A stretch of 64,000 nt of DNA from the NCBI RefSeq assembly GCF_003086795.1, contig NZ_CP026003.1, positions 3,663,531 through 3,727,530 on the forward strand. The letters run 5' to 3'. Of the stretch, positions 20,591 to 38,524 are shown piece by piece. Numbering within the stretch: the first letter of the stretch is position 1; every line of letters starts with the position of its first letter. The notes beneath the pieces were generated by a model, which saw only the letters and a program-made list of their open reading frames with translations, ran no database searches and was not told where the DNA came from. Made by a program: the position numbers and the translations under genes. This DNA is from Stenotrophomonas sp. SAU14A_NAIMI4_5. GTDB lineage: Bacteria > Pseudomonadota > Gammaproteobacteria > Xanthomonadales > Xanthomonadaceae.

Positions 20591-22580
<1,990 letters not shown>

Positions 22581-22615
22581 CTTGCTGCGCATTAGAGCAC
22601 GAAGGTGTGGGGACA

Positions 22616-24907: not shown

Positions 24908-26626
24908 TCAGTACCCCGCCGCCTGCCCATCCTTGCGGCTCTCGGAAGCACCGTAGTAAACCCCGCTCTCCGGATCACGCATGATCGCCTGGTAGCCGCC
25001 ATACGGGCCGTCGGCGAACACGATGCGATGCCCCTTGCGCATCAGCGCGCGCACCGTCTCATACGGGAAGCCGATTTCCAGATTCACTTCACCGCCATCG
25101 CTCATCGCCGTCGCCTGGCCGGTCGGTTCGGTCGAGCCCTCGTGCTGGATGCGCGGTGCATCGCCGGCTTCCTGCAGGTTCATGCCGAAGTCCACCAGGT
25201 TCATCACGATCTGCGCGTGGCCCTGCGGCTGCATCGCACCGCCCATCACGCCGAAGCTGGCGTAAGGCTTGCCGTCCTTGGTGATGAAGCCCGGGATGAT
25301 GGTCTGGAACGGGCGCTTGCCCGGTGCGTAGCCATTGGGATGGTTCTTCTGCAGCACGAACATCTCGCCGCGGTCCTGCAGGATGAAGCCCAGCCCCGGC
25401 GGTGCCATGCCGCTGCCCATGCCGCGGTAGTTGGACTGGATCAGCGACACCATCATGCCGTCGGCGTCGGCCACGGTCATGTAGATCGTGTCGCCCTCCT
25501 CCAGCTGCTTGGGCGTGCCTGGCTGCACTTCCTTCAGTGCCTTGTCCATCGAGATCAGCGCGCGGCGCTGCGCTGCGTAGTCCTTGGAAATCAGCTTCTG
25601 CACCGGTGCCGGCTGGAAGGCCATGTCGGCGTAGAAGCGCGCGCGGTCGGCGAAGGCGAGCTTCTTGGCTTCGACGAACAGGTGCACGTGCTCGGGCGAG
25701 CCGAACGGGATCTTCGAGAAGTCGTAGCCTTCCAGCACGTTGAGGATCTGCAGCGCGGCGATGCCCTGGCTGTTCGGCGGCAGTTCCCACACGTCATAGC
25801 CACGGTAGTTGCTGCTGACCGGCTCGACCCACTCGCCGTGGTGGTCGGCCATGTCCTGGTAGCTCAGGTAGCCGCCGTTGGCCTTGAAGTAGTCGCCGAT
25901 GGTGTGGGCGATGGCGCCCTTGTAGAAGGCATCGCGGCCGCCGTCGGCGATCTGCTGCAGGGTGCTGGCCAGGTTCGGGTTCTTCCACATCTCGCCCTTG
26001 CGCGGGGCGTGGCCGTTGATCGTGAACTGCTCGCTGAATCCGGGGTACTTGGACAGCTTCGGTACCGAGCGGTCCCAGTAGTACGCGATGACCTCAGCCA
26101 CCGGATGCCCCTCGCGGGCATAACGGATGGCCGGGGCCAGGTTGTCGGCCATCGGCTTGCGGCCGAAGCGCTCGTGCAGGGCGAACCAGCCGTCGACCGC
26201 GCCGGGCACCGAGACCGGCAGGGGGCCGGTGGCCGGGATGTCCTTCAGGCCGCGGCGCTGGAACTCGGCCAGGGTCAGCGACTTCGGCGAGCGGCCCGAG
26301 CCGTTGTAGCCGTACAGCTTCTGGGTCTTGGGGTCCCAGACGATGGCGAACAGGTCGCCGCCCACGCCGTTGCCGGTCGGCTCCATCAGGCCGAGGGTGG
26401 CGTTGGCGGCGATGGCAGCGTCAACCGCCGAACCGCCGGCCTTCATCACGTCCAGCGCGACCTGGGTGGCCAGCGGCTGCGAGGTGGCGGCCATGGCATG
26501 TGGGGCGATCACCTCCGAGCGGGTGGCGAAGGTGTGGCCGGTGATGCGGTCGGCGGCGAAGGACAGCGCGGGCATCGCGGCCAGTACGGCGGCGGCCAGC
26601 AGGGAACGGGCAAGGCGTCGGGACAC
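24908..26626 (-). CDS. ggt: Gamma-glutamyltransferase
   Basis: Periplasmic N-terminal-nucleophile enzyme that cleaves or transfers the gamma-glutamyl group of glutathione. I start at the GTG of the VSRRLARSLLAAAVL reading (572 residues), with a signal peptide ending near LSFAADR. The precursor is cut autocatalytically before the Thr in EEGDTIYMTVADADG (about 395-410). Other conserved parts are MEPTGNGVGGDLFAIVWD, LPPNSQGIAALQILNVLE, YRGMGSGMAPPGLGFILQDR and MGGAMQPQGHAQIVMNLVD. The substrate-binding region is otherwise complete. The gene is single, with a SMAG pair upstream. Confidence 0.95.
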   Translation of the reverse strand: MSRRLARSLLAAAVLAAMPALSFAADRITGHTFATRSEVIAPHAMAATSQPLATQVALDVMKAGGSAVDAAIAANATLGLMEPTGNGVGGDLFAIVWDPKTQKLYGYNGSGRSPKSLTLAEFQRRGLKDIPATGPLPVSVPGAVDGWFALHERFGRKPMADNLAPAIRYAREGHPVAEVIAYYWDRSVPKLSKYPGFSEQFTINGHAPRKGEMWKNPNLASTLQQIADGGRDAFYKGAIAHTIGDYFKANGGYLSYQDMADHHGEWVEPVSSNYRGYDVWELPPNSQGIAALQILNVLEGYDFSKIPFGSPEHVHLFVEAKKLAFADRARFYADMAFQPAPVQKLISKDYAAQRRALISMDKALKEVQPGTPKQLEEGDTIYMTVADADGMMVSLIQSNYRGMGSGMAPPGLGFILQDRGEMFVLQKNHPNGYAPGKRPFQTIIPGFITKDGKPYASFGVMGGAMQPQGHAQIVMNLVDFGMNLQEAGDAPRIQHEGSTEPTGQATAMSDGGEVNLEIGFPYETVRALMRKGHRIVFADGPYGGYQAIMRDPESGVYYGASESRKDGQAAGY

Positions 26627-26718
26627 GGTCGGGTTCCGGGGAAAGGGTGGTGCCCCGATCTTCGCCGCTGCGGCCTTCACGCGGTATCGGGCAGAGGTCA
26701 TGGAAGGCGCTGGCAATC

Positions 26719-26778
26719 CGCCGGGCATGGCCCGGCGCTACCTGCACGGGACCCGGTAGCGCCGGGCCGTGCCCGGCG
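26719..26778. repeat. Facing pair of SMAG palindromes (CGCCGGGC subtype)
   Basis: Copies at 26719-26741 and 26756-26778 with stems CGCCGGGC/GCCCGGCG. Their GTAG heads face each other, with 14 bases between them. Located upstream of ggt. Confidence 0.8.
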
Positions 26779-26931
26779 AGCGCAGCGGTAAAAGCCCCTC
26801 ATTCCCGCGCAAAAAACCCGCTGAAAAGAGTGAATTCCGGTTCACCGAAACAATTTCAGTCGCAACCATCCTTGTGCCGCAAGCGATTGCGCCGGATGCA
26901 GCGGAAACCAAAAAAATATCCGTTGCCAGGG

Positions 26932-26960
26932 TTGACACTGCCGAATCGCACATGTTTCTC
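26932..26960 (+). promoter_or_regulatory. Candidate ilv-leu operon promoter
   Basis: Perfect -35 TTGACA (26932-26937), 17-base spacer, weak -10 TTTCTC (26955-26960). Initiation would fall near 26967, so the leader ORF at 26969 would be leaderless, which fits its lack of a ribosome-binding site. Confidence 0.45.
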
Positions 26961-26968
26961 TCGATCAC

Positions 26969-27097
26969 ATGTTGCACCACACCACGCCACTGCGAACCCA
27001 CGTTGAAGCCGCCGACACCGGCGCCGCCTCGCTGCGTTCGATTCTCGTGCTCGTACTTATTACCCAGCCAACAGGTGCGGGACGAGCCAGCGTGTAA
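26969..27097 (+). CDS. ilv-leu operon attenuator leader peptide
   Basis: A 42-residue ORF with residues 25-31 reading ILVLVLI: seven Ile, Leu and Val codons in a row (27041-27061), plus Val, Leu and Leu elsewhere. This is the signature of an attenuation leader for branched-chain amino acid synthesis. The ORF has no clear ribosome-binding site; the putative promoter would make it leaderless. Downstream are a terminator hairpin (27123-27154) and an antiterminator arm GGTGCGGG (27074-27081) that pairs with the terminator's left arm. Too short to be found by usual gene callers. Confidence 0.75.
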   Translation: MLHHTTPLRTHVEAADTGAASLRSILVLVLITQPTGAGRASV

Positions 27098-27122
27098 GCA
27101 ACAGACACACCGGAACTCGACA

Positions 27123-27154
27123 AAAACCCGCACCCGCCCCGGTGCGGGTTTTTT
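27123..27154 (+). terminator. Attenuator terminator of the ilv-leu operon
   Basis: Stem AAAACCCGCACC/GGTGCGGGTTTT with loop CGCCCC and a run of six T (27149-27154). The left arm CCCGCACC (27127-27134) can instead pair with GGTGCGGG at 27074-27081 inside the leader ORF, which would block termination when ribosomes stall on Ile/Leu/Val codons. A possible protector stem pairs GCTCGT (27049-27054) with ACGAGC (27082-27087). Confidence 0.8.
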
Positions 27155-27186
27155 CATTTCAAGACCTGGTTTCAGACGCAACCACC

Positions 27187-27288
27187 ATGAAGACCGCCAA
27201 CTGCAAAACCCGGACCTGCCACACCACGACGCCTCGTGGTGGCTGTGCCCGTGCGATGCGTGGCGCCTCCCCCGCCGTTTTCCCCTGA
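27187..27288 (+). CDS. Possible second leader ORF, Thr/Cys-rich
   Basis: A 33-codon ORF starting MKTANCKTRTCHTTTPRGGC, with six Thr and three Cys in its first 20 residues. It ends at 27288, and its stop overlaps the base of a second hairpin (27287-27327). No strong ribosome-binding site precedes it. Threonine is the substrate of IlvA encoded in the same operon, so a Thr-sensing role is conceivable, but this may equally be chance. Confidence 0.35.
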   Translation: MKTANCKTRTCHTTTPRGGCARAMRGASPAVFP

Positions 27289-27327
27289 CCGGCCGGTACG
27301 TCGCTTCGACTGCCGGCCGTCTTTTTT
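27287..27327 (+). terminator. Second terminator-like hairpin just upstream of ilvC
   Basis: Stem GACCGGCCGG/CCGGCCGTC with one bulged C and a 16-base loop, followed by six T (27322-27327). It ends 40 bases before the ilvC start and would form a second attenuation or processing point. Confidence 0.55.
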
Positions 27328-27366
27328 CTTCCCGTCTTTTTCTTCCCACCGCAAGGAACCTCCCCC

Positions 27367-28341
27367 ATGAGCACCAACGATCTGCCCCAGACCAAGATCG
27401 CCGTCATCGGCTACGGCAGCCAGGGCCGCGCCCACGCACTGAACCTGCGCGAATCCGGTTTCGACGTGGTGGTAGGCCTGCGCCCGGGCGGCCCGACCGA
27501 AGCCAAGGCCCAGGCCGACGGCTTCAACGTGGTGGCCCCGGCTGACGCCGTGAAGGACGCCGACCTGGTCGCCGTGCTGACCCCGGACATGGTGCAGAAG
27601 GAGCTGTACAACGAGGTGCTGGCGCCGAACATGAAACAGGGCGCCTGCCTGCTGTTCGCCCACGGCCTGAACGTGCATTACGGCATGATCGAGCCGCGCG
27701 CCGACCTGGACGTGGTGCTGGTCGCGCCGAAGGGCCCGGGCGCGCTGGTCCGTCGCGAATACGAAATCGGCCGCGGCGTGCCGTGCATCTGGGCCATCCA
27801 CCAGGATGTCACCGGCAACGCCGAACAGCATGCCAAGGCCTATGCGGCCGGCCTCGGCGGCGCCCGCGCCAACCTGATCCAGACCACCTTCAAGGAAGAG
27901 ACCGAAACCGATCTGTTCGGTGAGCAGGCAGTGCTGTGCGGCGGCGCCTCGGCGCTGGTGCAGGCCGGCTTCGAAACGCTGGTGGAAGCCGGTTACCAGC
28001 CGGAAATCGCCTACTACGAAGTGCTGCACGAACTGAAGCTGATCGTCGACCTGTTCTACGAAGGCGGCATCTCGCGCATGCTGGAATTCGTCTCCGAGAC
28101 CGCCCAGTACGGCGACTACGTCAGCGGCCCGCGTGTGATCGACGCCAGCACCAAGGAGCGCATGAAGGAAGTCCTGAAGGACATCCAGGACGGCACCTTC
28201 ACCAAGAACTGGGTGGCCGAGTACGAAGCGGGCCTGCCGAACTACAAGAAGTACAAGCAGGCCGACCTGGAGCATCCGATCGAGAAGGTGGGCAAGGAAC
28301 TGCGCGCCAAGATGGTCTGGTTGCAAGGACAGGCCGCGTAA
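27367..28341 (+). CDS. ilvC: Ketol-acid reductoisomerase
   Basis: Class I (short) enzyme that converts 2-acetolactate or 2-aceto-2-hydroxybutyrate to the dihydroxy acid with NADPH and Mg2+. It has 324 residues. The N-terminal Rossmann motif is [20 protein letters not shown] (about 15-34), and the C-terminal KARI knot has [16 protein letters not shown] and [28 protein letters not shown] lies about ten bases upstream of the ATG. First structural gene of the ilv-leu operon. Confidence 0.96.
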
Positions 28342-28379
28342 CCACGCGGCCACCCCCACCCGCTTTGCAAGGTTCCCCC

Positions 28380-30116
28380 ATGAACTCTCCCACACACCGC
28401 AGCGCGCCGCCCAACGGCGCGCGCTGGCTGACCCAGGCGCTGGAGGCCGAGGGCGTCCGTACGCTGTTCGGCTATCCCGGCGGCACCATCATGCCGTTCT
28501 ACGACGCGCTGGTGGATTCGTCGCTGAAGCACATCCTGGTGCGCCACGAGCAGGGTGCGGCGCTGGCGGCCAATGGCTTTGCCCGCGCCAGCGGCCAGGT
28601 CGGCGTCTGCGTGGCCACCTCCGGCCCCGGCGCGTCGAACCTGGTCACCGGCATCGCCGATGCGATGCTGGATTCGGTGCCGATGGTCTGCATCACCGGC
28701 CAGGTCGCCACGCCGCTGCTGGGTACCGACGCCTTCCAGGAACTGGATGTGTTCGGCCTGACCCTGCCCATCGTCAAGCACAGCTGGCTGGTGCGCAGCG
28801 TCGATGACCTGCCGCGCGTGGTGGCCGACGCCTTCCGCATTGCCCGCGAGGGCCGCCCCGGGCCGGTGCTGATCGACCTGCCCAAGGACGTGCAGCTGGC
28901 CGATGCCAGCCACCTGCCGGCGCATGTGCCGTCCAGCGTGGAACCGCCGGCCGCGGCCGCCGATGCGGCCATCGCCGACGCCATCGCTGCACTGGCAGCG
29001 GCCGAGAAGCCGGTGATCTACGCCGGCGGTGGCATTGCCCTGGGCGAGGCCGTGCAGGACCTGCGCGACTTCGCCGAGGCCAGCGCCATCCCCACCGTGA
29101 TGACCCTGCGTGGCCTGGGCGCGCTGCCCCCGCAGCACCCGCAGTCGCTGGGCATGCTGGGCATGCACGGCACCCGCGCGGCCAACATGGCGGTGCAGGA
29201 AAGCGACCTGCTGCTGGTGCTGGGTGCGCGCTTCGATGACCGTGCCACCGGCAAGCTGGCCGAGTTCGCTCCGTTCGCCCGCGTGGTCCACATCGACGCC
29301 GACGCCTACGAGATCTCCAAGCTGCGCAGCGCCGATGTCGCGGTGCCGGGCAATGTCAGCCATGCCATCCGCGCCCTGCGTGCGGCCTTCCCCTCCCCCC
29401 AGGCCCACCAGGACGCATGGCGCAAGCGCTGTGCCCAGCACCGCGACCGCTTCGCCGCCCGCTACGACGCACCGGGCCAGCACATCTACGCCCCGGCGCT
29501 GCTGAAGCGGCTGAGCGAAGTGGCGCCGGCCGACACGGTCATCGCCTGCGATGTCGGCCAGCACCAGATGTGGGTGGCCCAGCACTGCCGCTTCAACCAC
29601 CCGCGCAACCACCTGACCAGTGGCGCGCTGGGCACCATGGGCTTCGGCCTGCCGGCGGCGATGGGCGCGCAGTTCGCCTGCCCCGACCGCACCGTGGTGC
29701 TGGTGTCCGGCGATGGCAGCTTCATGATGAACGTGCAGGAGCTGACCACCATCGCGCGTTGCCGCCTGCCGGTGAAGATCGTGCTGCTGGACAACAGTTC
29801 GCTGGGCATGGTGCGGCAGTGGCAGGAGCTGTTCTTCTCCGAGCGCTACAGCGAGATCGACCTGTCCGACAACCCGGACTTCGTGGCCCTGGCCAAGGTG
29901 TTCGGCATCGCTGCCACCCGCATCGACAACCGCGACGACGTGGAAGGCGGCCTGGCCGCGCTGCTGGCCGAACCGGGCCCCGCCCTGCTGCACGTGGCCA
30001 TCGATGCACGCGCCAACGTGTGGCCGCTGGTGCCGCCCAACACCGCCAACAGCACCATGCTGGAAAGCAACCCCGCCCACGCCCGCCAGGAGACCCCAAA
30101 TGCAATACCGGCTTGA
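28380..30116 (+). CDS. ilvG: Acetolactate synthase large (catalytic) subunit
   Basis: Thiamine-diphosphate enzyme that makes 2-acetolactate or acetohydroxybutyrate. It has 578 residues from ATG 28380 (MNSPTHRSAPPNGARWLTQA); a longer open frame runs back into ilvC but is a shadow. Domains are the N-terminal pyrimidine domain with catalytic Glu (ILVRHEQGAALAANGFARAS), a central domain with the GRPGPVLIDLPKDVQ segment, and the C-terminal TPP domain with the GDGSFMMNVQELTT motif (about 448-461) and LGMVRQWQELFFSERYSE. It overlaps the next gene by 17 bases. With the ilvM-type partner it looks like isozyme II. Confidence 0.95.
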   Translation: MNSPTHRSAPPNGARWLTQALEAEGVRTLFGYPGGTIMPFYDALVDSSLKHILVRHEQGAALAANGFARASGQVGVCVATSGPGASNLVTGIADAMLDSVPMVCITGQVATPLLGTDAFQELDVFGLTLPIVKHSWLVRSVDDLPRVVADAFRIAREGRPGPVLIDLPKDVQLADASHLPAHVPSSVEPPAAAADAAIADAIAALAAAEKPVIYAGGGIALGEAVQDLRDFAEASAIPTVMTLRGLGALPPQHPQSLGMLGMHGTRAANMAVQESDLLLVLGARFDDRATGKLAEFAPFARVVHIDADAYEISKLRSADVAVPGNVSHAIRALRAAFPSPQAHQDAWRKRCAQHRDRFAARYDAPGQHIYAPALLKRLSEVAPADTVIACDVGQHQMWVAQHCRFNHPRNHLTSGALGTMGFGLPAAMGAQFACPDRTVVLVSGDGSFMMNVQELTTIARCRLPVKIVLLDNSSLGMVRQWQELFFSERYSEIDLSDNPDFVALAKVFGIAATRIDNRDDVEGGLAALLAEPGPALLHVAIDARANVWPLVPPNTANSTMLESNPAHARQETPNAIPA

Positions 30117-30348
30117 CCTGGTGCTGCACCCGGCCGAAGGCGCGCTGCTGCGCGTGATCGGCATGGCCGAACGCCGCGGCTTCGCCCCGCGCGCGATCAG
30201 CGGCGCGCCGGTGGCCGCCGATGACGGACGCTGGCACCTGCAGCTGGTGGTCGATGGCCAGCGGCCGCCGGAAACCCTGTGCCGGCAGATGGAAAAGATC
30301 TACGACTGTGTGTCGGTACAGCTGACGCCCGTGGAAGGAGCTGCATGA
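30100..30348 (+). CDS. ilvM: Acetolactate synthase small subunit, IlvM type (ACT domain)
   Basis: An 82-residue ACT-domain protein that stabilises and regulates the IlvG subunit. ATG at 30100 lies inside the 3' end of ilvG (17-base overlap), with CAGGAG upstream, so the two are translationally coupled. The fold is recognisable by LVLHPAEGALLRVIGMAERR.., APRAISGAPVA.., WHLQLVVDG and LCRQMEKIYDCVSVQL. It is a single ACT unit, as in IlvM, and lacks the second domain of IlvH/IlvN. Confidence 0.88.
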   Translation: MQYRLDLVLHPAEGALLRVIGMAERRGFAPRAISGAPVAADDGRWHLQLVVDGQRPPETLCRQMEKIYDCVSVQLTPVEGAA

Positions 30349-30461
30349 TGAACACCCGTACCGTAGCGACCACGGTGCCGGCACGGAGGCGTCTTCTTCG
30401 TCGCCCGTGCCCGCACCCGGCGCAGTCCGGCAACCCGCTGGTGGCCCATGCCGGCCGCTGA
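30345..30461 (+). CDS. Small ORF between ilvM and ilvA
   Basis: A 38-codon ORF (MMNTRTVATTVPARRRLLRR...) whose ATG overlaps the ilvM stop by ATGA and which ends 14 bases inside ilvA. It is Arg-rich. It may only serve to carry ribosomes across to ilvA by coupled re-initiation; no function is recognisable. Confidence 0.35.
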   Translation: MMNTRTVATTVPARRRLLRRPCPHPAQSGNPLVAHAGR

Positions 30462-31547
30462 TGCCAGCAAGGAAAGCGATGTCGGTGACGTAAGCGTCGC
30501 CGACGTACTGGCTGCGCAGGCCCGCCTGCGCCGCTTCCTGCCGCCTACCCCGCTGCACCATGCCGAGCGCTTCGGCACCTGGCTGAAGCTGGAAAACCTG
30601 CAGCGCACCGGTTCCTACAAGGTGCGCGGCGCATTGAACGCGCTGCTGGCCGGCCGCGAACGCGGCGATACCCGGCCGGTGATCTGCGCGTCGGCCGGCA
30701 ACCACGCCCAGGGCGTGGCCTGGGCCGCCTACCGCCTGGACGTACCGGCCATCACCGTGATGCCGCATGGCGCGCCGGCCACCAAGATCGCCGGTGTCGC
30801 CCACTGGGGCGCCACCGTACGCCAGCACGGCAACAGCTACGACGAGGCCTTCGCCTTCGCCGTCGAACTGGCGCAGCGCCATGGCTACCGCTTCCTGTCC
30901 GCCTTCGACGATGCCGACGTGATCGCCGGCCAGGGCACGGTCGGCATCGAACTGGCACCGCATGCACCGGACGTGGTGATCGTGCCGATCGGTGGCGGCG
31001 GCCTGGCCTCCGGCGTGGCGCTGGCACTGAAATCGCAGGGCGTGCGCATCATCGGTGCGCAGGTCGAGGGCGTCGATTCGATGGCCCGCGCGATCCACGG
31101 TGATGTCAACGAGATCGCACCGGTGCCGTCGCTGGCCGACGGCGTGCGGGTGAAGGTGCCCGGCTACCTGACCCGCCGCCTGTGTGCCTCGCTGCTGGAC
31201 GACGTGGTGATCGTGCGCGAAGCCGAGCTGCGCGAGACCCTGGTCCGCCTGGCGCTGGAAGAACACATCATCGCCGAGGGCGCCGGTGCGCTGGCCCTGG
31301 CCGCCGGCCGCCGCGTGGCTGGCCGCCGCAAGTGTGCGGTGGTGTCCGGCGGCAACATCGATGCCGGCGTGCTGGCCGGCCTGCTGACCGACATCCGCCC
31401 CCGGCCGCCGCGCAAACCGCGCCGGCGCCGCAGTGACACCAACCGCACACCACCACGCTCGCCCAGCAAGGCCAGCGCCCCCGCCTCCCCCACTTCTTCC
31501 CCTTCCCACCTGCAAGCCGTCGCGCCCGCTGTCGAGGAGATTTCCCT

Positions 31548-31551
<4 letters not shown>
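30448..31551 (+). CDS. ilvA: Threonine dehydratase, short form without regulatory domain
   Basis: PLP enzyme that deaminates threonine to 2-oxobutanoate for isoleucine synthesis. It has 367 residues. The PLP lysine is in [12 protein letters not shown] (about 52-63), [13 protein letters not shown] follows, and the glycine-rich phosphate loop is [13 protein letters not shown] (about 180-192). The catalytic domain ends near residue 317. The allosteric ACT-like domain of the long IlvA form is absent; in its place is a Pro/Arg/Ser-rich tail of about 50 residues ([18 protein letters not shown]...). Its last bases overlap the leuA GTG start. Lack of the regulatory domain implies no classical isoleucine feedback. 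Confidence 0.88.
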
Positions 31552-33131
<1,580 letters not shown>

Positions 33132-33141
33132 GGAAACTGAC

Positions 33142-33915
33142 ATGAGCGCCTTCGACACCGCCACCACGGCCGCCGGCCAGCAGTGGAACGCCCAGGACTA
33201 TGCGATCGACGCCGGTTTCGTGCCGCTGCTCGGCGGTGCGGTGTCGCGCCTGCTCGACCCGCGCACCGGTGAACGCATCCTCGACCTGGGCTGTGGCGAT
33301 GGCGTACTCAGCACCGAACTGGCCCTCAGCGGCGCACGCATCCACGGCGTGGACGCCTCGCCGGAACTGGTCAATGCCGCCCGCGCGCGCGGCGTCGACG
33401 CGCAGGTGATGGATGGCCACGCGCTGACCTTCAACGCCGAGTTCGATGCGGTGTTCAGCAATGCCGCGCTTCACTGGATGGGCAACCCGGACCGCGTGCT
33501 GGAGGGCGTGCGTCGTGCCCTGCGTCCCGGCGGCCGTTTCGTCGCCGAGTTCGGCGGCCATGGCAACGTGGCTACCATCATCGCCGCGGTGCAGGCCGCA
33601 CGCGTGGCCCATGGCCATGGCGCCAGCGCGTTCCAGTGGTATTTCCCGACCGCCGATGCCTACGCCGACCGCCTGCGCCAGCACGGCTTCCAGGTGCAGC
33701 TGATCGAGACCACACCGCGCCCGACCGCGCTGCCGACCGGCGTGGCCGGCTGGCTGCGGGTGTTCGCCGCGCCGCTGCTGGACGATCTGCCGGCAGCCGC
33801 CCGCGCCACCGTGCGCGAGGCCGCGGTGGTCCTGCTGGAGGACCTGCCGCGTGACGCAGCCGGCCAGCCGCTGGCCGACTACGTGCGCCTGCGCGTGCTC
33901 GCCCGCCGTCGCTGA
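33142..33915 (+). CDS. Class I SAM-dependent methyltransferase embedded in the leucine operon
   Basis: A 257-residue methyltransferase with SAM-binding motif I ERILDLGCGDGVLSTELALS (about 48-67), acidic motif VDASPELVNAARARGVDA and post-motif FNAEFDAVFSNAALHWM. The spacing and ALHWM signature resemble trans-aconitate methyltransferase (Tam) relatives. It is preceded by GAGGAA, lies ten bases after leuA and 60 bases before leuC. The yeast trans-aconitate methyltransferase acts on 3-isopropylmalate, the intermediate made next in this pathway, so a role on an isopropylmalate is a reasonable hypothesis; the substrate is unproven. Confidence 0.85.
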   Translation: MSAFDTATTAAGQQWNAQDYAIDAGFVPLLGGAVSRLLDPRTGERILDLGCGDGVLSTELALSGARIHGVDASPELVNAARARGVDAQVMDGHALTFNAEFDAVFSNAALHWMGNPDRVLEGVRRALRPGGRFVAEFGGHGNVATIIAAVQAARVAHGHGASAFQWYFPTADAYADRLRQHGFQVQLIETTPRPTALPTGVAGWLRVFAAPLLDDLPAAARATVREAAVVLLEDLPRDAAGQPLADYVRLRVLARRR

Positions 33916-33975
33916 CTTGACCGTTCCGCTTTCTTTATTGATGTTCGCTCTCTCGTACCTCTGCCAGGCATACGC

Positions 33976-35394
33976 ATGACTTCCGCACCCCGCACCCTGT
34001 ACGACAAACTGTGGGACGCCCACGTGGTGGTTCCCGAATCCGACAGCGCCCCCGCCGTGCTGTACATCGACCTGCACCTGATCCACGAGGTCACCTCGCC
34101 GCAGGCGTTCACCGAGCTGCGTTCGCGCGGCGTGGCGCCGCGCCGCCCGGATCGCACCAAGGCGACGATGGACCACTCCACCCCGACCCTGCCGGCCGGT
34201 GCCGACGGCAAGCTGCCCTACGCCAGCGCCGCCTCCGAAGCGCAGGTCGCCACCCTGGCGCGCAACTGCGCCGAGTACGGCATCGAGCTGTTCGACATGG
34301 CCTCGGACAACCGCGGCATCGTCCATGTCATCGCCCCGGAGCAGGGTTTCACCCAGCCCGGCATGACCATCGTCTGCGGCGACAGCCACACCTCCACCCA
34401 CGGCGCGTTCGGTTCGCTGGCCTTCGGCATCGGCACCAGCGAAGTCGGCCACGTGCTGGCCACCCAGTGCCTGCTGCAGCGCAAGGCCAGGACCTTCGCC
34501 ATCACCGTCGACGGCCCGCTGGCGCCGGGCGTCGGTGCCAAGGACGTGGTCCTGCACATCATCGGCGTGATCGGGGTCAACGGTGGCACCGGCCACGTCA
34601 TCGAGTTCCGTGGCAGCACCATCGAAGCGATGGACATGGAACAGCGCATGACCCTGTGCAACATGTCGATCGAAGCAGGTGCGCGTGCCGGCATGGTCGC
34701 CCCCGACCAGGTCACCTTCGACTTCGTGGCCAACACTCCGCGCGGCCCCAAGGGCGCCGACTTCGACGCCGCCGTGGCGCGCTGGCAGCAGCTGCGCAGC
34801 GATGACGGCGCACGCTTCGACAGCGAAGTGCGCATCGACGCCGCCGACATCCGCCCGACCCTGACCTGGGGCACGCACCCGGGCACCGCCATCGCCGTGG
34901 ACACGCCGATTCCGGCCGCCAACGATGCCGCTGCACAGAAGGGCCTGGATTACATGCACTTCCAGGCCGGCAAGGCGCTGGCGGGCACGCCGGTGGACGT
35001 GGTGTTCGTCGGCTCGTGCACCAACGGCCGCCTGAGCGACATGCGCGAAGTGGCGCAGGTGCTGCGTGGCCGCCGGGTAGCCGACGGCGTGCGCATGCTG
35101 GTGGTGCCGGGTTCGGAAATCGTCAAGCGCCAGGCCGAGGCCGAAGGCATCCACGAGATCGTGCGCGCGGCCGGTGCCGAGTGGCGCGAGCCGGGCTGCT
35201 CGATGTGCATCGCCATGAACGGTGACCTGGTCGCCCCCGGCCAGCTGGCGGTGAGCACCAGCAACCGCAATTTCGAGGGCCGCCAGGGTCCCGGTTCGCG
35301 CACCCTGCTGGCCTCGCCGATGAGCGCGGCCTGGGCCGCGGTGAAGGGCCAGGTGGCCGACACCCGCGAACTGTTCGCACAGGAGGTGGCGTGA
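33976..35394 (+). CDS. leuC: 3-isopropylmalate dehydratase large subunit
   Basis: Aconitase-fold 4Fe-4S enzyme that, with LeuD, interconverts 2- and 3-isopropylmalate. It has 472 residues. Substrate and cluster motifs are [60 protein letters not shown] (cluster Cys about residue 353) and [11 protein letters not shown] (about 413-423, two more cluster Cys). ATG is at 33976. The stop overlaps leuD by one base. Confidence 0.96.
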
Positions 35395-35972
35395 TGGCCG
35401 GTTTCCGTACCCTGACCTCGTCCAGCGTCGTGCTGGCGCAGACCAACATCGACACCGACCAGATCATTCCGGCGCGGTTCCTGTCCACCACCGAACGCGC
35501 CGGCCTGGGCCGCAACGCGTTCAATGACTGGCGCTGGCAGGCCGACGGCTCGCCGGTGGCCGACTTCGCCTTCAACCAGCCGCACAACACCGGCCGCAGC
35601 ATCCTGCTGGCCGGCCGCAACTTCGGCTGCGGTTCCTCGCGCGAACATGCGCCGTGGGCGCTGACCGACCTGGGCCTGCGCGCCATCGTCAGCAGCGAGA
35701 TCGCCGACATCTTCCGCGGCAACTCGCTGAAGAACGGCCTGCTGCCGATCGTGCTGGACGAATCCGACGTGCAGGCGCTGATGCAGCGCCCGGACGACGA
35801 GCTGACCATCGACGTGGCCGCGCGCGAGCTGCGCACCCCCGACGGCCGCGTCTATTCCTTCCCGCTGGATGGCTTCTCGCAGACCTGCCTGCTGGAAGGT
35901 GTCGACCAGTTGGGGTATCTGTTGGGCCGTGTCCCAGAAATCGAACGTTACGAGAGTGAGCATGCACGCTGA
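35394..35972 (+). CDS. leuD: 3-isopropylmalate dehydratase small subunit
   Basis: Swivel-domain partner of LeuC. It has 192 residues from ATG 35394, which overlaps the leuC TGA by one base; a GTG three bases upstream gives one extra residue. Motifs seen are [20 protein letters not shown], the conserved [15 protein letters not shown] (about 76-90), and SLKNGLLPI. It overlaps leuB by 11 bases. Confidence 0.96.
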
Positions 35973-37023
35973 AATTGTTGTCCTGCCCGGTGATGGCATC
36001 GGCCCGGAAGTTGCCGCTGCTGCAGTGGCCGTCCTGAAGGCTGTCGCCGAACGCTTCAACCACAGCTTCACCTTCAGCGAGCACGACATCGGTGGCATCG
36101 CCATCGATCGCCATGGCGAGCCGCTGCCGGCCGCCACCCTCACCGCCTGCCAGGCCGCCAACGCGGTGCTGCTGGGCGCCGTGGGTGGCCCGAAGTGGTC
36201 CGATCCGAACGCCAAGGTGCGCCCGGAACAGGGCCTGCTGGCGATCCGCAAGGCGCTGGGCCTGTACGCCAACCTGCGCCCGGTGCGCACCCATGAAGCC
36301 GCGCTGCACGCCTCGCCGATCAAGGCCGAGCTGCTGCAGGGCGTGGACTTCGTGGTGGTGCGCGAACTGACCGGCGGCATCTACTTCGGCGACAAGACCC
36401 GCGACGCTGACAGTGCCAGCGACCTGTGCCGCTACACCGTGGCCGAGATCGAGCGCGTGCTGCGCAGCGCGTTCCGCCTGGCCCAGCAGCGCCGTGGCAA
36501 GGTCACCTCGGTGGACAAGGCCAACGTGCTGGAAACCTCGCGCCTGTGGCGCGACGTGGCCGCGCGCATCGGCCGCGAGGAATTCCCGGACGTGGCGCTG
36601 GAACACCAGCTGGTCGATTCGATGGCCATGCACCTGCTGGCCAAGCCGCGCGAGTACGACGTGATCGTCACCGAGAACATGTTCGGCGACATCCTCACCG
36701 ATGAAGCCTCGATGCTGGCGGGTTCGCTGGGCCTGCTGCCTTCGGCTTCGCTGGGCGAACCGGGCGCGGTGGGCATCTACGAGCCGATCCATGGTTCGGC
36801 GCCGGACATCGCCGGCAAGGGCATCGCCAATCCCTACGCGACGATCTTCAGCGCCGCCATGCTGCTGCGCCATTCGCTGGGCCTGGACGCCGAAGCCGCC
36901 GCGGTGGAAGCCGCCGTGCATGCGGTACTGGATGACGGCGTGTTCACCGCCGATCTCGCGGCCAAGGGGCAGGCGGTCAGCACCGCCGCCGCCACCGACG
37001 CGGTGCTCGCCAAGCTGAAGTGA
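35962..37023 (+). CDS. leuB: 3-isopropylmalate dehydrogenase
   Basis: NAD-dependent oxidative decarboxylase that gives 2-oxoisocaproate, the last dedicated step to leucine. It has 353 residues from ATG 35962 ([20 protein letters not shown]), starting inside leuD. Catalytic and substrate residues lie in [33 protein letters not shown] and the metal-binding [20 protein letters not shown]. The nucleotide-binding [18 protein letters not shown] is complete. Last gene of the ilv-leu operon; three SMAG copies follow. Confidence 0.96.
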
Positions 37024-37033
37024 TGTCAGGAGA

Positions 37034-37113
37034 AGCCACCCATGGGGTGGCTCTACTGTAGAGCCGAGCCATGCTCGGCTGATGCAACCGTCGTCGAGCA
37101 TGGCTCGACGCTA
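37034..37113. repeat. Three SMAG palindromes after leuB
   Basis: Three copies of different subtypes: 37034-37056 (AGCCACCC stem, head on minus strand), 37058-37080 (GTAGAGCCGAGC) and about 37091-37113 (CGTCGAGC, head on minus strand). The region separates the ilv-leu operon from gdhA and may mark the operon end. Confidence 0.75.
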
Positions 37114-37174
37114 CAGGACCCCACCTTCATGCCGACCGCGCAGCCGCCGCCCCGCACAGGCCTCAATCCAAGGA

Positions 37175-38524
37175 ATGCCTTTGAAGCATCGTTCCCCCGA
37201 CGAGTTCCTCGCCGACGTCGCCCGCCGTGACCCGCACCAGCCCGAGTTCCTGCAGGCGGTAAAGGAAGTGGTCCACAGCCTGTGGCCGTTCCTGCAGGAC
37301 AACCCGCGCTACCTGCAGCAGGGCCTGCTGGAGCGCCTGGTCGAGCCGGAGCGGCTGATCCAGTTCCGCGTGGCCTGGAGCGATGACGCCGGCCAGGCCC
37401 AGGTGAACCGCGCCTGGCGTGTGCAGCACAGCTCGGCCATCGGCCCGTTCAAGGGCGGCATGCGTTTCCACCCGTCGGTGAACCTGTCGATCCTGAAATT
37501 CCTCGCCTTTGAGCAGACCTTCAAGAACGCACTGACCACGCTGCCGATGGGCGGCGGCAAGGGCGGTTCGGACTTCGACCCCAAGGGCCGCAGCGATGCC
37601 GAAGTCATGCGCTTCTGCCAGGCGCTGATGCTGGAACTGCACCGCCACCTGGGTCCGGACACCGACGTGCCCGCCGGTGACATCGGCGTCGGTGCGCGTG
37701 AGGTCGGCTACATGGCCGGCATGATGAAGAAGCTCAGCAACGATGCTGCCTGCGTGTTTACCGGCAAGGGCCTGTCCTATGGCGGCAGCCTGATGCGCCC
37801 GGAGGCGACCGGCTACGGCACGGTCTATTTCGTCGAGCAGATGCTGCACCACGCGCGCCGCGAAACCCACGGGGCACGCGTGCTGGTGTCGGGCTCCGGC
37901 AACGTCGCCCAGTACGCCGCGCAGAAGGCCATCGAGCTGGGCGCGAAGGTGCTGACCTTCTCCGATTCGGGCGGCACGCTGTACGCGCGCGATGGCTTCG
38001 ACGAGCAGGCCCTGCAGGAACTGATGGCACTGAAGAACGAGCGCCGTGGCCGCCTGCAGGAACTGGCAAGCGATACCCGCTTCGAGTTCCTCGCCGGCAA
38101 GCGTCCCTGGCATGTGCCGGCGGACATCGCCCTGCCCTGCGCCACCCAGAACGAGCTGGATGAAGATGACGCCCGCACGCTGGTGCACAACGGCGTGCAG
38201 TGCGTGGCCGAGGGCGCCAACATGCCCTCCACGCTGGAAGCGGTGGGTGTGTTCCTGCAGGCCGGCACGCTGTACGCACCGGGCAAGGCCAGCAATGCCG
38301 GTGGCGTGGCGACGTCCGGTCTGGAGATGAGCCAGAACGCGCAGCGGCTGTCCTGGCACCACGCCGACGTGGACGAACGCCTGCACGCGATCATGAAGGA
38401 CATCCACGCCAGCTGCGTGCGCCATGGCAAGCGCGCCGACGGCAGCGTCAATTACGTGGATGGTGCCAACATCGCCGGCTTCGTGAAGGTGGCCGACGCG
38501 ATGTTGGCGCAGGGGTTGTACTAG
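37175..38524 (+). CDS. gdhA: NADP-specific glutamate dehydrogenase
   Basis: Assimilates ammonium into 2-oxoglutarate with NADPH. It has 449 residues, a length typical of the NADP hexameric type. The glutamate-binding and catalytic region is GPFKGGMRFHPSVNLSILKF and the glycine-rich PMGGGKGGSDFDPKGRSD (about 125-142); the Rossmann part contains RVLVSGSGNVAQYAAQKAIE. ATG 37175 has AAGGA only one base upstream, whereas the in-frame TTG at 37181 (MKHRSPDEFLADV) has that AAGGA at six bases, so TTG may be the true start. The TAG stop is followed at once by the in-frame TAG of a SMAG head. Confidence 0.95.
   Translation: MPLKHRSPDEFLADVARRDPHQPEFLQAVKEVVHSLWPFLQDNPRYLQQGLLERLVEPERLIQFRVAWSDDAGQAQVNRAWRVQHSSAIGPFKGGMRFHPSVNLSILKFLAFEQTFKNALTTLPMGGGKGGSDFDPKGRSDAEVMRFCQALMLELHRHLGPDTDVPAGDIGVGAREVGYMAGMMKKLSNDAACVFTGKGLSYGGSLMRPEATGYGTVYFVEQMLHHARRETHGARVLVSGSGNVAQYAAQKAIELGAKVLTFSDSGGTLYARDGFDEQALQELMALKNERRGRLQELASDTRFEFLAGKRPWHVPADIALPCATQNELDEDDARTLVHNGVQCVAEGANMPSTLEAVGVFLQAGTLYAPGKASNAGGVATSGLEMSQNAQRLSWHHADVDERLHAIMKDIHASCVRHGKRADGSVNYVDGANIAGFVKVADAMLAQGLY

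Follow-up and report, generated by a model that had tools for sequence, protein, structure and literature searches.

The window analysed here is a stretch of 64,000 nucleotides from Stenotrophomonas sp. SAU14A_NAIMI4_5, and all positions are counted from its first letter. Its central part carries a branched-chain amino acid (BCAA) biosynthesis cluster that runs on the forward strand from 27367 to 37023 in the order ilvC-ilvG-ilvM-ilvA-leuA-MT-leuC-leuD-leuB, with family assignments as follows.

27367..28341 (+), ilvC, ketol-acid reductoisomerase (NCBIfam TIGR00465)
28380..30116 (+), ilvG, acetolactate synthase large subunit (NF006524)
30100..30348 (+), ilvM-like acetolactate synthase small subunit (NF008362, E 3.4e-8, below the curated cut-off)
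30448..31551 (+), ilvA-like threonine dehydratase (NF006455)
31548..33131 (+), leuA, 2-isopropylmalate synthase (TIGR00973)
33142..33915 (+), methyltransferase-like gene, MT (best NCBIfam matches below cut-off)
33976..35394 (+), leuC (TIGR00170)
35394..35972 (+), leuD (TIGR00171)
35962..37023 (+), leuB (TIGR00169)

The closest NCBIfam models to MT, which lies between leuA and leuC, are those for trans-aconitate methyltransferase and BioC, both below their cut-offs, and the PF00920 (ilvD-type) genes lie elsewhere in this genome. A consensus scan of 27100-37400 gave no promoter-like site, and the same interval holds 4 terminator-like sites against 4.3 expected from shuffles, two of them being the two strands of the attenuator hairpin described below; the whole cluster is probably cotranscribed. 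The gene order bears out the proposal of the first-pass annotation that one leader stands ahead of both ilv and leu genes. An Rfam scan at the gathering score found no match at the attenuator, the only match in the window being a TPP riboswitch at 22485-22586 (-), ahead of a minus-strand ORF that we take to be thiC. Ahead of hisG, a reading by eye of the first 1900 bases of a separately taken stretch revealed no His leader, and the short ORF directly before hisG resembles a gene for a TrpR-type regulator.

The region ahead of ilvC contains the following elements, in which the hairpin arms are numbered as segments 2, 3 and 4.

26932..26937 (+), -35 element TTGACA (exact match 35-39 nt ahead of the ATG in 129 of 133 leaders)
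26956..26961 (+), inferred -10 element TTCTCT (spacing 18, TG before it at 26953-26954; from column conservation)
26969 (+), predicted transcription start, at the first base of the leader AUG (C at -1; a discriminator of 7 nt follows the inferred -10)
26969..27097 (+), leader ORF MLHHTTPLRTHVEAADTGAASLRSILVLVLITQPTGAGRASV (42 aa; ATG at 26969, TAA at 27095-27097)
27041..27061 (+), stall run ATT CTC GTG CTC GTA CTT ATT (seven Ile/Leu/Val codons)
27043..27051 (+), possible protector 5' arm, pairing with 27074-27082 in the predicted fold of the window leader
27074..27081 (+), segment 2, GGTGCGGG, antiterminator 5' arm (from pairing and covariation)
27127..27134 (+), segment 3, CCCGCACC, antiterminator 3' arm and terminator 5' arm (from pairing and covariation)
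27141..27148 (+), segment 4, GGTGCGGG, terminator 3' arm (from pairing and covariation)
27149..27154 (+), terminator T-run, T6 (from sequence)

Re-reading of the sequence confirmed the 42-codon ORF at 26969-27097 and, within it at 27041-27061, the seven consecutive Ile/Leu/Val codons that the first-pass annotation had pointed out, and this run is kept in relatives. When the residues of this leader were shuffled 200,000 times, a seven-residue I/L/V run arose in 192 of the shuffles. IlvC matches at E ≤ 0.001, some of them weak, were obtained in 168 of 198 genomes of the family, and the 139 family loci considered here are the listed IlvC loci with E < 1e-100, own genome excluded. A leader ORF of this kind with an upstream TTGAC was present at 131 of these 139 loci, while the reverse strand of the same stretches, searched under the same rule, gave 0 of 139; this conservation makes a chance origin of the leader untenable. 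Among the other eight loci, six have less than 2 kb of upstream sequence, one (L213) has a leader that was found by the covariance model, and one (L210) showed no leader despite 4 kb upstream. Leader length ranged from 35 to 63 aa in the 133 leaders collected.

For the analysis of RNA structure the 133 leaders were joined by six added under looser rules, giving 139 leader regions, and segments 2, 3 and 4 were located in all 139. The intrinsic terminator between the leader and the first gene is present by sequence, as had been claimed; its stem, originally placed at 27123-27152, spans 27124-27151 when the A-T pairs are counted, and so overlaps the T-run. The copy of GGTGCGGG at 27074-27081, proposed to compete for the left arm of the terminator, is likewise present, and the segments co-vary. 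Pairing between segments 2 and 3 was complete (8 of 8) in 73 leader regions, with 7 pairs in 52 and 6 in 14, and pairing between segments 3 and 4 reached 8 in 80, 7 in 54 and 6 in 5; because GCGGG served as the anchor for finding segment 2, and CCCG for segment 3, this preselects 4-5 of the 8 pairs. When segment 3 was shuffled among the 37 distinct triples, 0 of 5000 shuffles reached the observed pairing total for either helix, in a test that takes no account of relatedness among leaders. One variable column runs through the three segments (2-3-4), reading C-G-C in 47 of the 139 regions, T-A-T in 40, T-A-C in 34 and A-T-A in one (L206), the remaining 17 being mixed forms, mostly mismatched somewhere; L206 and L209, which belong to the same genus and read A-T-A and T-A-T respectively, thus differ by a matched three-way change.

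Across 46 diverse sequences the terminator showed 96.1% pairing and two-sided changes at 5 pairs (a number reached by 1 of 500 shuffles). The antiterminator showed 93.7% pairing and a two-sided change at one pair, seen in 13 sequences; this pair is the variable column common to the three segments. Covariation scores of both helices exceeded all 500 shuffles, which again leave relatedness uncontrolled. The antiterminator surpassed the shuffles in pairing, in changed cells and in covariation score, but not in how many pairs showed two-sided change (1 against 1.3) or in pair types (5 against 5.3). Because the two helices share segment 3, the antiterminator excludes the terminator, and covariation links segment 2 with 3 and segment 3 with 4. 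The distance from the start of segment 2 to the stop codon is 21 nt in 110 of the 139 leader regions.

The T-A-C class leaves an A.C mismatch in the terminator of 34 of the 139 regions, where the antiterminator can pair, and the terminator tail starts with TTTCGC in 17; both features occur together in L005 and L006 (Xanthomonas). In loci of the L005 type (e.g. L005, L006, L112) the A.C mismatch is central and the T-run is broken as TTTCGCGTTTC, and the antiterminator is fully paired despite the mismatched terminator. The terminators of both sets may be weak, and termination may be leaky in L005 and L006, which combine the mismatch with the TTTCGC tail.

A third stem was not supported. The first-pass annotation had proposed a protector, GCTCGT/ACGAGC (27049-27054 with 27082-27087), overlapping the stall codons; it is present here, but among the 65 leaders directly ahead of ilvC it is fully paired in only 7, and as a conserved protector it was rejected, with no covariation and no better pairing than shuffles on the 46 sequences. 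The alternative stem 27043-27051/27074-27082 forms 8 or 9 of its 9 pairs in 42 of the same 65 leaders, and on the 46 sequences 77.8% of its cells were paired, without covariation. Family-wide, the upstream pairing of segment 2 was 0.85 compared with 0.82 when the upstream sequence was shuffled, and for the window leader 33 of 200 shuffles equalled it; there is thus no excess of upstream pairing that would support a protector stem. The local hairpin had z = -2.0 in the window leader and a mean of -0.41 over the 139.

The genes that follow the leader vary. It stands directly before ilvC in 65 of the 139 leader regions and before ilvD-ilvC in the other 74, with ilvD on the same strand as the leader in 74 of 74. 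At the Rhodanobacter-type loci with about 10 kb of upstream sequence (L011-L015 and L017-L019) a full-length model match precedes leuA in 8 of 8, the downstream ORF being identified by a LeuA motif of 12 residues, and the leader peptides start M[SPT]QR, as do many other leaders. In other parts of the order, judging from the translations read, the leader is followed by a gene resembling ilvD, leuA, ilvG or ilvC, and at L267 leuA was confirmed. Standing before ilvC, ilvD-ilvC or leuA, the leader therefore tends to stay ahead while the genes rearrange.

These comparisons bear on another account of the locus, in which a plain terminator follows a small protein gene and no hairpins switch. The minimum-energy fold prefers the terminator in the modelled states that hold both of its arms, and even in the 'stalled' RNA it still does, as that account would have it; under attenuation the same result means that the choice of antitermination must be kinetic. 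The antiterminator arm, however, is part of the ORF and changes in step with segments 3 and 4, the I/L/V run precedes BCAA genes at 131 of the 139 family loci, and the ORF keeps its place ahead of the cluster when gene order changes, so that we regard a plain terminator as a very improbable explanation. The first-pass annotation had recognised an attenuation design of the ilv/leu type and had proposed comparing it across relatives; in that comparison the BCAA run, the terminator and the antiterminator pairing were all conserved, supporting the contention that the locus is an attenuator.

With a covariance model built from the run-to-terminator part, 145 of the 200 genomes searched in the order gave a match at E ≤ 0.001, the weak matches including plain terminators, and the model gave matches below 1e-10 in eight of the twelve numbered families of the order (f1, f3, f4, f5, f7, f9, f10 and f12). 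Across the class 85 of 274 genomes matched at E ≤ 0.001, three of them from the own family, and most of the class matches listed cover the terminator half only. The strongest full-length matches outside the order were in G429 (1.3e-10) and G611 (4.4e-8); the first (L279) has no TTGAC, and the second (L280) has aggag before its AUG. Both L279 and L280 contain I/L/V leader ORFs with the same type of hairpin, and from the translations read the L279 leader precedes an MFS-transporter-like ORF and the L280 leader a BrnQ-transporter-like ORF.

The start of the leader was compared in the 133 leaders. In the window the distance from the first base of TTGACA to that of the ATG is 37 nt, and an exact TTGACA was found at 37 nt in 63 leaders, 36 in 55, 38 in 6, 35 in 4 and 39 in 1; two further leaders have TTGACA with one mismatch at 36 or 37, and the last two have it at 13 (L216) and at 56, although in L216 the next in-frame ATG, 24 nt on, brings the distance back to 37. 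No leader (0 of 133) carried a Shine-Dalgarno-like 4-mer (AGGA, GGAG, GAGG or AAGG at -18 to -4), compared with 47 of the 66 ilvC starts assignable to an ATG and with 11% of random 15-mers from the same loci. This bears out the suspicion in the first-pass annotation that the leader has no ribosome-binding site. Two of the eight Rhodanobacter-type leaders scored such a 4-mer, in each case the AAGG inside the likely -10 element. As a pattern alone, TTGACAN{29,32}ATG is no evidence, since its 12 matches across the own genome compare with 15 in the reversed control; two of the 12 are leaders, namely the ilv-leu leader and the Thr leader described below.

The same transcript could instead carry a 5' UTR, with a start further upstream and Shine-Dalgarno-independent initiation on an unstructured leader region. 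A consensus scan of 26500-27700 found no full sigma-70 promoter, which makes the -10 assignment weak in this genus, and in 6 of 14 leaders from other families of the order no hexamer fits TANNNT at the expected place. Against a leadered transcript, TTGACA is fixed 36-37 nt ahead of the AUG in 118 of the 133 leaders while the surrounding bases vary, a spacing for which the promoter of a longer UTR would have no need. The hexamer 18 nt after TTGACN does fit TANNNT in the other 8 of the 14 (as TACTGT, TATGGT, TAGTGT, TAGCTT, TAACTT or TAGGTT), followed by 7-8 nt and then the AUG, and 90% of the 130 distinct sequences carry a C at -1. We therefore consider a leadered form of the attenuator improbable. 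The fixed spacing of -35 to AUG, the absent Shine-Dalgarno sequence and the C at -1 strongly support the earlier idea of a leaderless transcript, whose synthesis would start at the leader AUG or no more than about two bases away.

The opening codons of the leader (26969-26992) are conserved at the nucleotide level, approximately as GCAnCGCnnCA from the sixth base. This conservation is common to leaders ahead of different genes and exceeds what the stall function needs, and the conserved codons are perhaps an element for leaderless initiation.

Codon use in the stall runs of the 133 leaders was compared with that of ilvC from the same loci, and the run inverts the usual preferences. ATT accounts for 97.9% of 189 Ile codons (1.7% in ilvC); Leu is CTT in 41.7%, CTC in 55.8% and CTG in 1.5% (1.1, 15.4 and 80.3% in ilvC); and Val is GTA in 46.3% and GTG in 9.3% (2.0 and 53.6% in ilvC). 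GC at third codon positions falls from 0.86 ahead of the run to 0.44 within it and returns to 0.67 beyond it, compared with 0.90 in ilvC. Because ATT and ATC are normally read by one tRNA, isoacceptor charging cannot explain ATT at 98%, a failure that speaks for keeping the AT-rich codons for RNA structure, as an unpaired loop, rather than for slow or charging-sensitive decoding. The near-invariance of CTTATTACC by position points the same way. On the other hand, ATT encodes Ile in 126 of 126 cases at the final position of the run and in 59 of 63 at its other positions, the run avoids CTG, and third-position GC is normal in the codons ahead of it, all of which argue against structure as the sole reason and leave that explanation possible yet the less probable one. 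Codon bias in E. coli leaders is known and has been explained by selective tRNA charging (PMC1183508), to which the leaders described here add the scale of the effect and the preference for ATT over ATC. The inversion of codon use may have a role in RNA structure in addition to stalling.

Taken with the absent Shine-Dalgarno sequence and the promoter-AUG spacing, the comparison of ORF, codon run, co-varying hairpins and codon inversion makes it highly probable that the locus is a ribosome-mediated transcription attenuator heading the BCAA operon, with a leaderless leader peptide. From this evidence we infer stalling, the behaviour of RNA polymerase, the exact 5' end, cotranscription of the cluster and the response to amino acids. 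The ribosome would load on the 5'-terminal AUG and not on a Shine-Dalgarno site. When charging with Leu, Ile or Val is low, it would stall on the seven I/L/V codons, which are mostly rare; the last of these ends 12 nt before segment 2, so a waiting ribosome should leave segment 2 free. Segment 2, thus exposed, would capture segment 3 before segment 4 is made, and the 2:3 pairing would let RNA polymerase read into ilvC-ilvGM-ilvA-leuA-leuCDB. When charging is high, the ribosome would reach the stop codon, where its footprint, by its size, spans the start of segment 2, 21 nt upstream; with segment 2 covered, segment 3 would pair with segment 4 and transcription would end at the T-run.

Two further leaders lie outside the window in the own genome. 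An Asn-codon leader ORF (MSIHLATAVNNSNRNNLRGNNRARNRARPMRDCALGR) at G000:C1:1546740-1546852(+) (L265), picked up by the covariance model, precedes asnB, whose family was confirmed; it has a terminator and an antiterminator, and TACGGT lies 7 nt before its AUG. Among 18 loci chosen because they gave a second model match, the own genome being one of them, 16 have an Asn leader; asnB lies downstream in 16 of 16, and at least 7 contiguous segment 2:3 pairs form in 15 of 16 (5 in L296). A literature search found no precedent for an asparagine-specific ribosome-mediated attenuator before asnB; the one paper that a related search brought up deals, by its title, with BCAA in Listeria. A Thr/Ile-codon leader (MVFDAALASLIAPASAGGSTAPVAITTIITTTATTALVRPVVFV) at G000:C1:2059451-2059716(+) (L226) has TTGACA 37 nt before its AUG, and the gene after it encodes an aspartate kinase whose best model is of the bifunctional thrA type (cut by the locus end). 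In a DNA search with this leader 17 of 60 family genomes matched; of these 17 loci 13 were checked, own genome included, and the leader with TTGAC at 36-38 nt was present in 6, none being found under the search rule in the other 7. The Asn leader (asnB) and the Thr/Ile leader (thrA) share the layout of the ilv-leu leader.

Between the attenuator and ilvC lie two more elements.

27187..27288 (+), second small ORF (33 aa)
27290..27327 (+), second hairpin with T-rich tail, after the stop of the second ORF (read by eye)

The terminator scan, restricted to loops of 3-8, did not pick up the second hairpin. The second ORF is open in 24 of 27 long-spacer loci, and its pN/pS of 0.87-1.36 in three equal-length groups (16 of the 24) is near 1, so that in these 16 ORFs its peptide is not under constraint. 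By eye, the stop of the second ORF falls at or inside the second hairpin in most loci, and the ORF of L005 ends early. In loci of the Xanthomonas type the last part of the ORF contains the hairpin, which could thus be melted by translation.

A broader reading, on which our judgement is evenly balanced, is that this order of Gammaproteobacteria has an attenuation regulon built on leaderless leaders (ilv-leu, thr and asn), together with an Asn-specific attenuator of asnB and, in Stenotrophomonas-Xanthomonas, a translation-relieved second checkpoint before ilvC. If so, the promoter would set the first base at the AUG and leaderless initiation would be built into amino acid sensing, while the second checkpoint would be formed by a further small ORF whose end falls at a second terminator-like hairpin.

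Enteric ilv/leu leaders have Shine-Dalgarno sites. Unlike the enteric ilvGMEDA and leu systems, the element described here has no Shine-Dalgarno sequence, its promoter abuts the AUG, one leader of 35-63 aa stands before ilv and leu genes together, and no protector stem is supported. The E. coli and Salmonella leu leader uses rare Leu codons, as does the stall run here, and the ilvGMEDA and leu attenuators of these species, which are named in PMC1183508, likewise consist of a leader with regulatory codons and alternative hairpins ahead of BCAA genes. The nearest likeness for the transcript is trpLE(G) of Sinorhizobium meliloti, described in PMC7298713 as an attenuator whose leader transcript begins at the leader-peptide AUG; that mRNA is leaderless, its 5' end being stated as known there and predicted here, and it differs in concerning tryptophan, in its 14-aa peptide and in belonging to the Alphaproteobacteria. 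The Caulobacter ilvBN attenuator is likewise a BCAA leader, with Ile/Val codons (PMC4117421, citing Tarleton 1994), but heads a different operon in the Alphaproteobacteria. For ilvBNC of Corynebacterium glutamicum, in the Actinobacteria, a BCAA attenuator with three hairpins has been proposed (PMC11857589), a likeness drawn by description and not by sequence.

A literature search, judged by titles and the openings of abstracts, found no report of the present element; the main text of PMC2965389 contains no 'ilv', and none of the terms looked for occurs in PMC3744752. It also found no paper joining attenuation, leader peptide, branched-chain amino acid and Xanthomonas. The attenuator itself is not claimed as new, because the comparative survey of proteobacterial attenuators by Vitreschak et al. 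in 2004 reportedly may already list Xanthomonas BCAA attenuators. Attenuation of BCAA operons and a leaderless attenuator transcript are each known; what appears new is the leaderless, order-wide form ahead of a joint ilv-leu cluster.

In textbook attenuation a ribosome loads promptly at a Shine-Dalgarno site behind RNA polymerase. If much of the order uses 5'-terminal AUGs instead, leaderless initiation must be fast enough for coupling to transcription, and a native regulatory site of this kind would allow the speed of leaderless coupling to be tested directly. The codon reversal, seen over 133 distinct leaders, offers the charging-sensitivity theory of leader codons a strong natural data set, and the choice of ATT over ATC provides a case beyond isoacceptor charging alone. 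A leader that is kept ahead of its cluster under changing gene order shows regulation surviving the rearrangement of an operon.
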